64,000 nucleotides of DNA from Vibrio crassostreae. Lineage in GTDB: Bacteria > Pseudomonadota > Gammaproteobacteria > Enterobacterales > Vibrionaceae. Position numbers and translations under genes: made by a program. Every line of letters begins with the position of its first letter. Positions within the stretch are counted from its first letter, which is position 1. The notes beneath the pieces are model-generated. The model was not told the DNA's origin and ran no database searches. It saw only the letters and a list, made by a program, of their open reading frames with translations. Below are positions 17,680 through 22,442 of the stretch, piece after piece. The stretch lies in contig NZ_AP025476.1 of the NCBI RefSeq assembly GCF_024347415.1, positions 2,604,001 to 2,668,000 of the forward strand, in the 5' to 3' direction.

Positions 17680-18591
17680 ATGAGCAATATCGGCACAAAG
17701 TTTATTCTCGCACAGCGGTTTGTCTTCGATCCAAACAGCAACTCACTTGTTGACCAAATGAGCGACGGCGAAGTCGTACGCCTTGGCAGCAATGAAAGCC
17801 GCATTCTCCTGATGCTGTCAGAAAGACCCAATGAAGTTATCACTCGTAATGAATTACACGAGTATGTTTGGCGAGACCAAGGCTTTGAGGTTGATGACTC
17901 TAGCTTAACGCAAGCAGTATCGACACTAAGAAAGATGCTGAAAGATTCGACCAAATCTCCAGAATTCGTAAAGACCGTGCCTAAACGCGGTTATCAATTT
18001 ATTGCAACCGTTGAGCGCTCTGCCCCACTTTCATCAAATGATCAGCCAGTCGCGGCTGAAATTACCGAAAATGACGTAGAACCTATCTTGACGTTTGCAA
18101 CGCCTGCAGCGACTGAAGAAACGATCACTGAAACGGTTGAATCAGAGCCAATTGCAAAAGTTCAAGAGACCAAGGTAGAACTAGAACCAGCAACCGCTCC
18201 TGTTACGGCTCCCGCTAAAAACACCAATAAGTGGCTAACATTTTGGTTACTGCTTGCCGCTTTCATCATGCCGATTCTCGTTTTGACGTTTACCAACCCG
18301 GCAGAGTCCGAGTTCAAAACATTGGCTGAAATAGATGGCGTAAAGGTTCAATCACCGATTAACCACCCAGATCTTAGCAGTTGGCTGCCAGCGATAGAGA
18401 AGTGTGTATTACGTTACAACACCAATCACACTGGCATGCTAAAGCCGACTGAAGTGATTGCAACAGGTGGGCAAACCAATAACCTTGCCCTCAACTACAT
18501 TCACCCGCAAGAATACTCAAGCGAAAATGTAACTCTAAGAATTTACGCAAACCAGTCGGATGTAAACGACATTTGTAACGGTGGTCAGTAA
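17680..18591 (+). CDS. toxR: transmembrane transcriptional activator ToxR
   Basis: Inner-membrane one-component regulator that senses bile, pH and envelope state and controls outer-membrane porin genes. It has 303 residues. The OmpR/PhoB-type winged helix spans about 1-110 (RNELHEYVWRDQGFEVDDS...KTVPKRGYQF). A Pro/Glu-rich variable tether follows, then one membrane segment near 185-205, then a periplasmic domain with Cys242 and Cys299, the redox pair known in V. cholerae ToxR. It forms an operon with toxS, whose ATG follows its stop by one base. Confidence 0.96.
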   Translation: MSNIGTKFILAQRFVFDPNSNSLVDQMSDGEVVRLGSNESRILLMLSERPNEVITRNELHEYVWRDQGFEVDDSSLTQAVSTLRKMLKDSTKSPEFVKTVPKRGYQFIATVERSAPLSSNDQPVAAEITENDVEPILTFATPAATEETITETVESEPIAKVQETKVELEPATAPVTAPAKNTNKWLTFWLLLAAFIMPILVLTFTNPAESEFKTLAEIDGVKVQSPINHPDLSSWLPAIEKCVLRYNTNHTGMLKPTEVIATGGQTNNLALNYIHPQEYSSENVTLRIYANQSDVNDICNGGQ

Positions 18592-18592
18592 C

Positions 18593-19108
18593 ATGAAATT
18601 AAAAGTATCGATTATTTTACTGGTTCTATCTGCATTTTTGAGTGGTTGGTTGTATTGGGGCAGCGATGCAAAAGTAGAGCGCTTGCTCACTCAGCATGAA
18701 TGGCAATCTAAGATGGTGACGCTGATTAGCGATAACAAGCAAGCTGACTCAATCGGCCCACTTCGTAGAGTTGAACTATCATCGAATGCGAAGTACCTGC
18801 CAAATGGTACATATTTGAGAATGTCAGTGGTTAGACTGTATGGTACTCAAACTGAGCCTGCGAATGTCATCAACATTTCGGAGACGGGTCAGTGGGATAT
18901 CAACGACAACTACCTTTTGGTTTCACCAACAGAGTTTAAAGATGTGACTTCAGCTCAGCGCCAAGATTTTTCGGAAGGGCAACTCGAACTGATCACTCAG
19001 GTTATTAAGATGGATGCAGAGCAAAGCCGACGCATCGACATCGTTAACCCGAAAGCACTGTTATTGACTAGCTTAAATCACGGTTCAACCGTATTGTTTT
19101 CGAACTAA
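18593..19108 (+). CDS. toxS: ToxR-stabilising periplasmic protein ToxS
   Basis: Membrane-anchored periplasmic partner that stabilises ToxR and enhances its activity. It has 171 residues with one N-terminal membrane segment (about 4-24: KVSIILLVLSAFLSGWLYWG) and a periplasmic domain. The frame opens at a GTG at 18581, inside toxR. The ATG at 18593, one base after the toxR stop, is the likelier start because GGTGG in the toxR end serves as its ribosome site. Confidence 0.94.
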   Translation: MKLKVSIILLVLSAFLSGWLYWGSDAKVERLLTQHEWQSKMVTLISDNKQADSIGPLRRVELSSNAKYLPNGTYLRMSVVRLYGTQTEPANVINISETGQWDINDNYLLVSPTEFKDVTSAQRQDFSEGQLELITQVIKMDAEQSRRIDIVNPKALLLTSLNHGSTVLFSN

Positions 19109-19168: not shown

Positions 19169-19242
19169 CCCTTAGCATCTGTTTTTTCATTGATACAGTG
19201 ATATTGGTATTAAGAATTTACTCGCATTTAAAAGGATTACCC

Positions 19243-19554
19243 ATGAGTACAGAGTCAGATCAAACAGCTTCCCCTATCACTAGAGCAACAATCACCATAC
19301 ACTATTGCCGTCAATGCAATTGGATGCTTCGTTCTAGTTGGTTATGCCAAGAGCTACTGCATACCTTCAGTGAAGAAATTGAACAAGTCAGTTTACACCC
19401 AGACACAGGAGGCAGGTTCGAAATCTTTTGCAATGGTGTGCAAATCTGGGAAAGAAAAGCAGATGGCGGCTTTCCTGAGGCGAAAGTTCTGAAACAAAGA
19501 GGGCGAAACATCATTGCTCCAGACAGAGACCTCGGCCACGTAGACTCAAAATAA
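19243..19554 (+). CDS. SelT/SelW/SelH (Rdx) family protein
   Basis: Small thioredoxin-like protein of 103 residues from the Rdx family, bacterial relatives of selenoprotein W. The redox motif is Cys22-Arg-Gln-Cys25 in HYCRQCNWMLRSSWL, with cysteine where some relatives carry selenocysteine. The conserved region GGRFEIFCNG follows. The frame opens at 19198, but AAAAGGATTACCC places the start at 19243. The redox partner is unknown. It converges on yfcE with only 25 bases between the stops. Confidence 0.85.
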   Translation: MSTESDQTASPITRATITIHYCRQCNWMLRSSWLCQELLHTFSEEIEQVSLHPDTGGRFEIFCNGVQIWERKADGGFPEAKVLKQRGRNIIAPDRDLGHVDSK

Positions 19555-19579: not shown

Positions 19580-20125
19580 TTAAAGCTGGCCACTCACGAG
19601 AGCATCACCTTCAAGGCTAATGACTTTGAAGGTATTGTTTTCATAGATGCCATAGCTCGCCGCGTGTCCCTCTCGTGGGAATGTCACCGAGCTAGGATTA
19701 AAGATAAAGATATTATCTTGGTATTCAGCAACTGGGATATGGGTATGGCCGTGTGCAATAATATCGCCTGCCTTCAGCGCAGGGCGTTTATTGGTATTGT
19801 ACAAATGACCATGGGTTAGGAAGATACGTTGGCCTGATTCTAATAGCACCCACGAGTAATCCATCATCATTGGAAAAGACAACAACATCTGATCCACTTC
19901 GCTATCGCAGTTACCACGAACGGCAATGATCTCTTGAGAAAACGCATTCAACTTATCTGCAACCGCCGGCGGGTTGTATCCCTCTGGAATCGGGTTTCTT
20001 GGACCATGATTCAGAATATCACCCAATAGAACCAAATATTGTGCACCAGAGGCTTGGTATAGCTCTAATACTTTTTCTGTTGCTGGCAGCGAACCGTGTA
20101 GGTCTGAAGCAAAAAATAATTTCAC
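19580..20125 (-). CDS. yfcE: phosphodiesterase YfcE-type
   Basis: Metallophosphoesterase of the MJ0936/YfcE group, 181 residues. E. coli YfcE hydrolyses phosphodiesters in vitro. All metal-binding motifs are present: SDLHGS, GDILNHG, GNCDSEVD, THGH and AHGHTH. The start is GTG with GGAG eight bases ahead. It lies 47 bases after the CBS-domain gene on the same strand with no terminator between, so it may be the last gene of that operon. Confidence 0.92.
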   Translation of the reverse strand: MKLFFASDLHGSLPATEKVLELYQASGAQYLVLLGDILNHGPRNPIPEGYNPPAVADKLNAFSQEIIAVRGNCDSEVDQMLLSFPMMMDYSWVLLESGQRIFLTHGHLYNTNKRPALKAGDIIAHGHTHIPVAEYQDNIFIFNPSSVTFPREGHAASYGIYENNTFKVISLEGDALVSGQL

Positions 20126-20172: not shown

Positions 20173-20580
20173 CTACACGTCATCTCTCGCCATACCGTTG
20201 ATTACGATATTATTGTAACTAACCATACCGACTATCTTGTTGTCACAAACGACTGGCGCACGACTAATACCAAAGCGTTCAAATAGGCGAGCGCAATATT
20301 TTACGTTCATCTCAGCAGACACGCTTAGCGCTGGCTTGGTCATGATCTCATAAACATTGGTTCGCTTCGGAGAACGGTTCTTAGCCAGTACTTTCTTAGC
20401 AATATCATTCATCAATACGATGCCGTATTCGTCATCTTCGTGGCGCTTATCGACAATGATGGCTTTCACTTTATGCTTCTTAGCCATCTCTATCGCTTCT
20501 AACACTGTAGTTAGCCCATCAATAATCACATAGGTGTTGGCCATTACGTCACTGACTCGAATCTTGTCATTGGTATTCAT
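20173..20580 (-). CDS. two-CBS-domain protein of the DUF1538 operon
   Basis: Stand-alone tandem CBS protein of 135 residues. CBS1 is about residues 8-65 (VSDVMANTYVIIDGLTTVLEA...YGIVLMNDI) and CBS2 about 75-132 (VYEIMTKPALSVSAEM...IVGMVSYNNIV). CBS pairs usually bind adenine nucleotides or related ligands and gate transporters or enzymes. There is no membrane segment or catalytic domain. Its ATG overlaps the stop of the PII-like gene (ATGA), so it is translationally coupled to it. Function inferred: a regulatory subunit for the adjacent membrane proteins. Confidence 0.85.
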   Translation of the reverse strand: MNTNDKIRVSDVMANTYVIIDGLTTVLEAIEMAKKHKVKAIIVDKRHEDDEYGIVLMNDIAKKVLAKNRSPKRTNVYEIMTKPALSVSAEMNVKYCARLFERFGISRAPVVCDNKIVGMVSYNNIVINGMARDDV

Positions 20581-20927
20581 AGTTCATCCTCCACAACCTT
20601 AGTTAATGTCTCGACCTGGTGTGCTACCCCGACTGCATCTTCGACATCAATCTGCACTGCTATACCTTGTCCCGATTCTTGGTCAAACTCACCCACGTCA
20701 CTAATTCTTTCGAGAATATGCCTTGCTAGATGCTCCTCGACGACAAACAGCAACACATCTTTTTGCACCTCTAACGTTAAGCCAAAGAAGGTGGTTTTTT
20801 GGTTTAAGCCCTGCCCTCTGGCATTATTAATCACGGTTGCTCCGGTTGCGCCCGCATCACGCGCGGCATCGAGCACACTGTCTGTCTTGCTCTCTTCTAC
20901 AAACGCTAAGATAAGTTTAAAGCGCAT
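20577..20927 (-). CDS. PII-like signalling protein of the DUF1538 operon
   Basis: A 116-residue protein with the start of the GlnB/PII fold ([20 protein letters not shown], then DAARDAGATGATVI). The T-loop region (about 37-55) is shorter than in GlnB, lacks the uridylylated tyrosine, and reads RGQGLNQKTTFFG. The usual B-loop TGKxGDGK is replaced by ESGQGIAV. It is therefore a divergent PII-like protein rather than GlnB or GlnK. It overlaps the upstream DUF1538 gene by 11 bases and the CBS gene by 4. PII-like proteins commonly regulate a neighbouring transporter in response to a nucleotide. Confidence 0.8.
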   Translation of the reverse strand: MRFKLILAFVEESKTDSVLDAARDAGATGATVINNARGQGLNQKTTFFGLTLEVQKDVLLFVVEEHLARHILERISDVGEFDQESGQGIAVQIDVEDAVGVAHQVETLTKVVEDEL

Positions 20928-21711
20928 CTTTGCTCTCCTTAGAGGTGTGTAAACGGTTTAACCATTGTGTTATTTGGGCATAGCTCATCACTGAAATAAT
21001 GGGAAATAAGCTGGCAAAAGCGATCAATCCAAAACCATCAATGACAGGGTTTCTTCCTGGTACGGTTGAAGCAAGCCCAAGCCCGAGCGCCGTCACCAAA
21101 GGGACTGTCACCGTTGATGTGGTTACACCGCCCGAGTCATAGGCCAATGGAATAATGAGTTTTGGGGCGTAAAAGGTTTGAATGACCACGACGACATAAC
21201 CAAAAATGATGTAGTAATGGATCGGGTCTCCAGCAACAATCCGATAGCTTCCAAGCGAGATACCAATAGCGACACCCAATGCCACGGCGATTCTCAGCCC
21301 ATTAACACTGATACTGCCGCCCGAGACTTGATTCGCCTTAATTGCCACAGCAATCAACGAAGGCTCGGCGATTGTGGTGCTAAAACCAATACAGAATGCA
21401 AAAAGATAAACCCAATAATAGTCAAACCAAACCAACGTAAGGCCAGAGCTGACCTTAAACTCAGTCAGGAAAATTGGCTCAGTCAGTTGCATGGCCATCG
21501 TCTCCCCTAAGGGAAACAGTGCAAGTTCCAATCCCATCAAGAAAAGAGACAAACCAAGGATGACGTAAAAGAAACCAATCAGCACCTTAGCTAAATTGTT
21601 CACAGGCTTACGTAATACCGCCAACTGAAAACCAAAGATGATCACCGCAATCGGAATTACATCCATCACGGTACCTAAAAAGGTGTCGATAAATTGCTGC
21701 ACACTGATCAT
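20917..21711 (-). CDS. DUF1538 membrane protein, second copy
   Basis: Polytopic inner-membrane protein of 264 residues with about seven hydrophobic segments. It is a clear paralogue of the gene just upstream: the first 70 residues align without gaps ([17 protein letters not shown]), and both share FSTTIAEP (110-117 here), [11 protein letters not shown] (190-200) and [17 protein letters not shown]. The polar residues inside membrane segments (TTx[13 protein letters not shown]) look like a substrate or ion path. The C-terminus is a short charged cytoplasmic tail. Its ATG overlaps the upstream stop (ATGA). No biochemical role is known to me. Confidence 0.85.
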
Positions 21712-22442
21712 GTCACCACCATCCCATAAACCATGACGAACATCATCGGCAACAACGAAGCAAATGCAATCAATCCAAAGCCATCAATCATAGGATTTCG
21801 TCCTTTAATCGCCGAGGCTAACCCCACCCCCAGTGCTGTCACCAGTGGAACGGTGATCGTCGATGTTGTCACTCCACCAGAGTCATACGCAATCCCAATA
21901 ATGTTTTCCGGAGCAAATGCAGTAAGCACCACAACTCCAATATAGCCACCGATGATCATGTACTGAATTGGCCAACCTTTTAAGATTCGCAGCACCCCAA
22001 GTAAAATAGCGATACCGACAGACAATGCTACGGTGAAACGCAGACCATCTGCATATTCTTCCATTTCATCTAACGTATTGGGGATGACGCCTCCCTCGGC
22101 GGCCACTTCCGCGGCTTCGGCCGCCACTGCGGTTAACGCAGGTTCGGCAATGGTGGTACCAAAACCTAAACAGAAAGCGAAGGTCAATAGCCAAAACACA
22201 CTGCCCTTTCGCGCAAAAGCTTGAGCCATCGATTCGCCAATCGGGAACAACCCCATTTCAAGGCCAAAGATAAAGAAAGTCAGACCAAACACCACCAGCA
22301 CTAAGCCAGTTAGAATTGATAACAGATGAGGAAGTGGCTCTTGCAAGACAGCAAGCTGGAAAAAAGCGATCACCGCCACGATCGGCAATAGATCTCTCAG
22401 GCTACCTAACATGGCTCGAAACAAAGCAAGCACCGCCGTCAT
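21708..22442 (-). CDS. DUF1538 membrane protein, first copy
   Basis: First gene of the four-gene operon; 244 residues with about seven membrane segments. Conserved polar motifs are GFGTTIAEP (93-101), [11 protein letters not shown] (185-195) and [17 protein letters not shown] (214-230). Between the third and fourth segments it carries an Ala/Glu-rich loop (about 102-132) different from its partner. The ribosome site AAGGAATTGCG precedes the ATG. The pair may form a heteromeric transporter or channel; this is inference from sequence character and from the regulatory genes in the same operon. Confidence 0.85.

Follow-up and report, generated by a model that had tools for sequence, protein, structure and literature searches.

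Which function is encoded by a set of four tightly coupled genes that specify two related DUF1538 membrane proteins, a PII-like protein and a protein with two CBS domains? We addressed this question for a locus of Vibrio crassostreae that lies within a stretch of 64,000 nucleotides, hereafter referred to as the window. In our view, the four genes probably encode a sensor-controlled antiporter of the UmpAB type, in which the two membrane proteins would form an antiparallel heterodimer that is switched by the PII-like and CBS proteins. According to the list of open reading frames (ORFs) of the window, UmpA, UmpB, the PII-like protein and the CBS protein are encoded by four minus-strand genes of one gene set (positions are those of the window):

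21708..22442, minus strand: umpA, DUF1538 membrane protein of 244 aa (ORF, Pfam, NCBIfam, family charge bias)
20917..21711, minus strand: umpB, DUF1538 membrane protein of 264 aa (ORF, Pfam, NCBIfam, family charge bias, AlphaFold2 model)
20577..20927, minus strand: PII-like gene, 116 aa, DUF1538-linked PII subfamily with the motif RGxG...TFxGL (Pfam, subfamily alignment, linkage)
20173..20580, minus strand: two-CBS gene, 135 aa (two PF00571 stretches, PDB match)
21708..21711, minus strand: umpA/umpB overlap of 4 bases, ATGA (from sequence)
20917..20927, minus strand: umpB/PII overlap of 11 bases (from sequence)
20577..20580, minus strand: PII/CBS overlap of 4 bases, ATGA (from sequence)

A preliminary description of this DNA had claimed four genes overlapping by 4, 11 and 4 bases, which encode two paralogous seven-segment membrane proteins followed by a PII-like and a two-CBS protein. 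All of this was confirmed. The ORFs and junctions could be read from the sequence, and PII-CBS pairs in the panel of loci described below also overlap most often by 4 bases (45 of 77 pairs, with starts chosen by script). Both membrane proteins are members of DUF1538 (PF07556; 236.4 bits for UmpA and 227.6 bits for UmpB at a cut-off of 22.6), both show seven Kyte-Doolittle hydropathy peaks of at least 1.5 over 19 residues, and they have in common the polar motif GRNP(M/V)IDGFG and one further motif of 17 letters. By the same measure, UmpA has an extra, weaker peak of 1.23 at residues 102-120. The third protein belongs to the P-II family (PF00543, 42.6 bits, cut-off 25) and the fourth has two CBS domains (PF00571, 62.5 bits, cut-off 24). 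The best NCBIfam matches of the membrane proteins are the UmpA profile NF041627 (382.4 bits, equivalog cut-off 490) and the UmpB profile NF041628 (349.9 bits, equivalog cut-off 500). Because these scores lie under the cut-offs, we have filed the proteins as UmpAB-like rather than as proven equivalogs, i.e. as a DUF1538 pair that is expected to work like UmpAB. The window can be placed in the Vibrio splendidus clade, its UmpB being 97-98% identical to that of V. splendidus and V. crassostreae loci.

The operon is flanked by a yfcE-family and a yfcH-family gene. The gene for the YfcE-family phosphodiesterase (19580-20125) is located on the same strand and begins 47 bases past the CBS stop codon, and it might be part of the operon transcript. 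A ToxS gene (PF17323) following a Trans_reg_C regulator gene, which is presumably toxR, lies at 17680-19108, slightly more than 1 kb away from the operon, and a SelT/SelW/SelH-family (Rdx) gene (19198-19554) sits between toxS and the operon. We take one further neighbouring gene to be htpG. No Rfam elements were found around the operon, and promoter-like sites were as frequent there as in shuffled sequences (7 versus 6.6). Terminator-like sites numbered 14 versus 2.8 in shuffles (sd 1.7), many of them overlapping and inside genes, and we have drawn on none of these sites.

According to the preliminary description, DUF1538 proteins have no assigned substrate. This statement is outdated, since the DUF1538 pair of Halomonas zhaodongensis was reported in 2017 to be UmpAB, a two-component Na+(Li+,K+)/H+ antiporter (PMC5484666). 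That report describes that co-expression of umpAB restores tolerance to salt, lithium and alkali in E. coli KNabc, that Na+(Li+,K+)/H+ antiport takes place at pH 6.5-9.5, and that the two subunits form a heterodimer as judged by co-immunoprecipitation; Vibrio ezurae is named among the close homologues (PMC5484666). As umpAB alone gave antiport in E. coli, neither of the sensor genes is required for basal antiport. The main text of the report mentions neither PII nor CBS, and it contains no topology, antiparallel or inverted terms (PMC5484666). NCBIfam names both subunits, while Pfam still lists DUF1538 as being of unknown function. The heteromeric membrane pair proposed in the preliminary description agrees with the Halomonas heterodimer and with the conservation of the gene unit in our survey. 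Its 'pore or transporter' can be narrowed down, as the antiport activity of the homologue makes an antiporter likelier than a pore. Of two other papers, a machine-learning study of 2026 lists DUF1538 among pH-adaptation families, and a study on cable bacteria ties UmpAB to salinity. No paper treating UmpAB together with PII-like or CBS proteins was found within the open-licence PMC literature. Antiport and heterodimer formation are already known for the homologue, and the partnership of UmpAB with the sensors is new to the open-licence literature searched.

How firmly are the sensors linked to umpAB? DUF1538 was present in 27 of 41 relatives, a set that includes the genome of the window itself, in 90 of 274 class genomes and in 116 of 299 phylum genomes, and in none of the 14 named control genomes. 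Gene neighbourhoods were examined in a panel of 94 loci from the listed DUF1538-positive matches, which was aimed at one locus per genus; high-scoring matches were favoured, a few genera are included twice and some positive genomes were left out. These loci were scanned with profiles grown from the window proteins, and PII and CBS matches of less than 60 bits were dropped. The preliminary description had proposed such a survey and had regarded a usual separation of the four genes as an argument against its own reading. Instead, the genes were found together. The order UmpA-UmpB-PII-CBS was observed in 67 of the 94 panel loci, fused UmpAB with PII and CBS in 8, UmpA-UmpB-PII without CBS in 8, and other arrangements in 11. 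A PII gene on the same strand was present near umpAB in 90 of the 94 loci, in 89 cases within 400 bases of DUF1538 or of a neighbouring match, and a same-strand CBS gene in 78 of the 94. The panel loci without PII are L215 (where the contig ends), L217, L251 and L256; L217 has a single DUF1538 domain, and the same genome has UmpB-PII-CBS at L284. Among the named loci, which are mostly from Vibrionaceae, all 80 have PII and CBS behind umpAB (V. ezurae locus L118 included), and 76 of them show the plain four-gene form. Because of this 80-of-80 linkage, the four-gene arrangement is far beyond chance. Even where the order is altered, with PII-CBS ahead of fused UmpAB as in L279, the gene set is still together. 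Three loci (L239, L252 and L257) contain two UmpAB-PII units each. An apparent UmpB-PII fusion (P0248, 378 aa, DUF1538 plus P-II) was rejected as proof of fusion, its joint being garbled, with the last span of UmpB gone, in a manner resembling a frameshift.

The same linkage is seen at the level of whole genomes. The PII profile (E<=1e-10) and the CBS profile (E<=1e-20) each match 89 of the 274 class genomes, and of the 90 genomes with DUF1538, 87 have PII and 82 have CBS; relatedness is not taken into account in the Fisher tests of co-occurrence. Of the DUF1538 genomes, three lack a PII match (G183, G234 and G274), and these contain divergent PIIs next to a UmpAB that is fused or, in L291, interrupted (L289-L291). 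Conversely, PII was found without DUF1538 in two genomes, G138 and G230, and the contig of G138 ends just upstream of the PII gene. In G230, a broken UmpB remnant is located right before intact PII and CBS genes (L268:1-1400). Seven genomes have CBS without DUF1538, namely G138, G230 and five with weaker matches (81-91 bits) inside much longer ORFs. Further exceptions, in which DUF1538 was absent from the fetched stretch, are PII at L276 (two weak matches), L277 and L280 (one internal stop), and CBS at L281 and L282. Over the 274 class genomes, PII and CBS are near-exclusive companions of DUF1538.

We next consider why two homologous membrane proteins would be needed. Lys and Arg residues were counted on either side of the membrane, with loops set from an AlphaFold2 model of the fused homologue P0198, in the DUF1538 proteins of the 164 of 174 loci that have exactly two long domains (A and B assigned by gene order). 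UmpA is richer in these residues on the side of its N-terminus in 164 of 164 loci (mean 9.27 versus 2.62), and UmpB on the side of its C-terminus in 162 of 164 (10.04 versus 4.68; one equal, one reversed). With the termini excluded, the sign for UmpA was kept in 149 of the 164 loci, with 10 equal and 5 reversed, and that for UmpB in 160, with 4 equal. Distant fusions show the opposite bias as well, in 13 of 13 cases for each half. UmpA and UmpB are thus a homologous pair with opposite positive-inside biases. UmpA is predicted to have a cytoplasmic N-terminus and its C-terminus outside, and UmpB an outside N-terminus and a cytoplasmic C-terminus. By the subtraction used in a review, the biases are about +6.7 for UmpA and about -5.4 for UmpB. 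For accepted antiparallel pairs, that review gives charge biases with a size of 6 to 7; size alone is compared here, since the signs printed in the review are equal within a pair. This view is supported by natural UmpA-UmpB fusions, whose linkers comprise 28-46 residues with a median net charge of -5 (74 of 75 fused rows, after one row with a deviating length had been dropped). The hydropathy peak of these linkers has a median of 0.79 and exceeds 1.6 in only 2 of the 74 rows. With seven spans per half and a join without an extra span, the halves would therefore be inverted relative to each other. Eight spans in UmpA, to which its weak eighth peak might correspond, would undo this argument. UmpA-UmpB may accordingly be viewed as an antiparallel heterodimer, that is, as a split inverted-repeat transporter.

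The predicted fold offers a candidate ion path. The AlphaFold2 models of P0198 (pLDDT 80.2, pTM 0.80) and of the UmpB of the window (pLDDT 84.1, pTM 0.75) both contain helices that are broken at AEP and near GGVTT. In three sets of domains searched with simple patterns, the Glu of AEP is kept in 156/156, 192/194 and 28/29, and the Asp of the GGVTT motif in 156/156, 188/194 and 23/29. These four acids (Glu of AEP and Asp of DSGGVTT in both subunits) probably form the cation/proton path. Foldseek searches of solved structures gave no match at E 0.001 for either model, and the absence of any one family from these results is uninformative; UmpB had no match among PDB sequences up to E 10. The rows for NCX_Mj and MgtE in the structure search were too weak for either to be named as a fold relative.

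The PII-like partner is usually named 'P-II family nitrogen regulator' in databases, and it forms a subfamily of its own kind. G26, T31, G38, F47, G49, G88 and G100 are invariant in 46 of 46 aligned rows, and (R/Q)GxG...(T/S)FxGL is present in 85 of 95 subfamily sequences. By PROSITE-like patterns, which we take to be the classical GlnB/GlnK uridylylation and nucleotide signatures, neither the uridylylation-site motif nor the C-terminal GDGK signature was found in any of the 95. Because these signatures are absent from all 95 sequences, GlnB-type nitrogen sensing by the subfamily is unlikely. The protein has no close match among PDB sequences (best E 0.09). In the CBS protein, an Asp that we presume to be the ribose-contacting residue is found in the first motif in 70 of 79 rows, the window included, and in the second motif in 65 of 79, where the window has Asn. 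Its best PDB sequence match is the CBS part of CBS-CP12 (PDB 5nmu; E 1.5e-25), a protein described as AMP-binding in a review. A search for diadenylate cyclase (PF02457), which matches 11 of the 14 control genomes, gave no match in the host genome, and c-di-AMP is therefore an unlikely sensor ligand in this host.

A distant DUF1538 clade shows a different sensor arrangement. It comprises sixteen loci (L269-L275 and L289-L297), 13 of which have both DUF1538 domains in one chain. L269-L275 were chosen for their PII match, so that PII at these loci is no test of linkage. Of 11 stretches chosen by DUF1538 alone, nine have PII (L289-L297), L298 has none and L299 is a fragment at the end of a contig. 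A separate second PII-like gene is present in 14 of the 16 loci (its profile was built from five of them, leaving nine that are independent), and none of the 16 has a CBS match. The usual position of CBS is taken in the distant clade by a further PII-like gene or domain. Single ORFs of 384-396 aa with tandem PII-like domains occur at L289:6159-7313, beside fused UmpAB, and at L291:6075-7262, beside interrupted UmpAB. Profile comparison supports two PII-like domains in this chain (best 94.6% and 98.8%); for a third domain, the values with three PII profiles were 57, 40 and 3%, with a CBS control of at most 0.6%. The chain would thus have two to three PII-like domains, the third being weakly supported, and is perhaps a single-chain PII trimer. 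A search of five genomes of its order for further copies matched one, the query genome itself. A tree built from 30 loci sampled from the panel and 13 distant loci places UmpA and UmpB in separate clades, with the distant halves grouping apart from both (0.996). This position leaves one shared UmpA/UmpB duplication unsupported. The metagenomic protein P0126 (759 aa) apparently has three DUF1538 units in one chain.

The gene unit is conserved, the charge biases are opposite and the fusions lack a linking span. For the working of the complex, we infer an antiparallel assembly, an ion site, gating, ligands and oligomeric states along the following lines. UmpA and UmpB, as homologous seven-span proteins inserted in opposite orientations, would pair as an antiparallel heterodimer, and two broken helices per subunit would carry the conserved acids of the cation/proton path, Glu of AEP and Asp of DSGGVTT. 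The pair would export Na+ (Li+, K+) against H+. A PII-like trimer may bind to the cytoplasmic face of UmpAB and switch transport, and a CBS dimer may sense the adenylate state and tune this switching, either directly or via PII. Tentatively, and as a possibility that we hold to be less than probable, UmpAB could be a trimer of antiparallel heterodimers whose caps are a CBS adenylate sensor and a dedicated PII trimer that senses a ligand new for PII proteins; the distant clade would then have a hetero-PII, and in at least two of its genomes a covalent chain with two to three PII-like domains would act as a single-chain trimer.

It seems rather unlikely that UmpAB has another physiological substrate, for instance bicarbonate or an organic ion, and that the Na+/H+ antiport seen in an E. 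coli strain without antiporters represents a side activity. Such a view may appeal to the fact that antiport is known from one homologue and one laboratory, which reports antiport by several unrelated families, and that the bicarbonate transporter SbtA is also controlled by a PII-family protein. However, antiport was measured with all three cations (PMC5484666), and the links to pH adaptation and to the salinity of cable bacteria point in the same direction. Thioalkalivibrio and Alkalilimnicola, which carry the names of alkaliphiles, are among the matches listed (120 fused homologues), together with Azoarcus and Pseudomonas, for a query that was itself Thioalkalivibrio-like. The ligand-gated channel or pore of the preliminary description is very improbable: CBS domains do regulate channels such as MgtE, but the homologue has antiport activity (PMC5484666) and the broken helices with conserved acids in the models would fit a carrier.

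Two further readings concern the partners rather than the substrate, and we consider both improbable. PII and CBS could just be co-transcribed with umpAB and act elsewhere, in nitrogen or energy metabolism, as might be suggested by the copies without nearby DUF1538 at L276, L277, L281 and L282 and by the function of UmpAB alone in E. coli (PMC5484666). This is difficult to reconcile with the near-exclusive co-occurrence in the 274 class genomes, with a gene unit that is kept whether UmpAB is split or fused and when the order changes, and with the missing classical PII signatures. Likewise, the opposite positive-inside biases and the fusions in which a short acidic linker joins two seven-span domains argue against UmpA and UmpB being an ordinary paralogous pair that lies parallel in the membrane, a reading to which the weak eighth hydrophobic peak of UmpA leaves some room. 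Should the sensor-controlled antiparallel antiporter be correct, ion and pH homeostasis would join the processes under PII-run transport, beyond nitrogen and carbon uptake, and CBS would link this homeostasis to the adenylate state. The need for both UmpA and UmpB would be explained by their being opposite halves of one inverted-repeat carrier, and the large DUF1538 family and its small PII-like partner would gain a concrete, testable role. The natural split and fused forms of UmpAB provide material on the evolution of inverted-repeat transporters.

Lastly, the gene set can be compared with known systems. The closest is UmpAB of H. zhaodongensis, which, like the window pair, consists of paired overlapping DUF1538 genes with seven predicted spans each, and in which loops III-IV of UmpA and II-III of UmpB are long and hydrophilic (PMC5484666); antiport was measured there and is predicted for the window copy. 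In SbtA-SbtB and AmtB-GlnK, a PII-family protein acts on a membrane transporter, as we propose for UmpAB and its PII-like partner, but UmpB has no PDB sequence match and the PII subfamily lacks the T-loop tyrosine and GDGK motifs. The cyanobacterial CBS-CP12 proteins, whose CBS part is the closest PDB sequence to the CBS protein, differ from it in that the window protein lacks the CP12 part and has a different partner. The sodium/calcium exchanger NCX_Mj gave a match that was under the meaningful level of the tool and missing from the rows for UmpB alone. DUF606, YdgQ/YdgL and YdgE/YdgF are, like UmpA/UmpB, homologous pairs in opposite orientation, and DUF606 also has fused two-domain forms like those of fused UmpAB. 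UmpAB differs from these three systems in the seven spans of each half and in its attached sensor genes.
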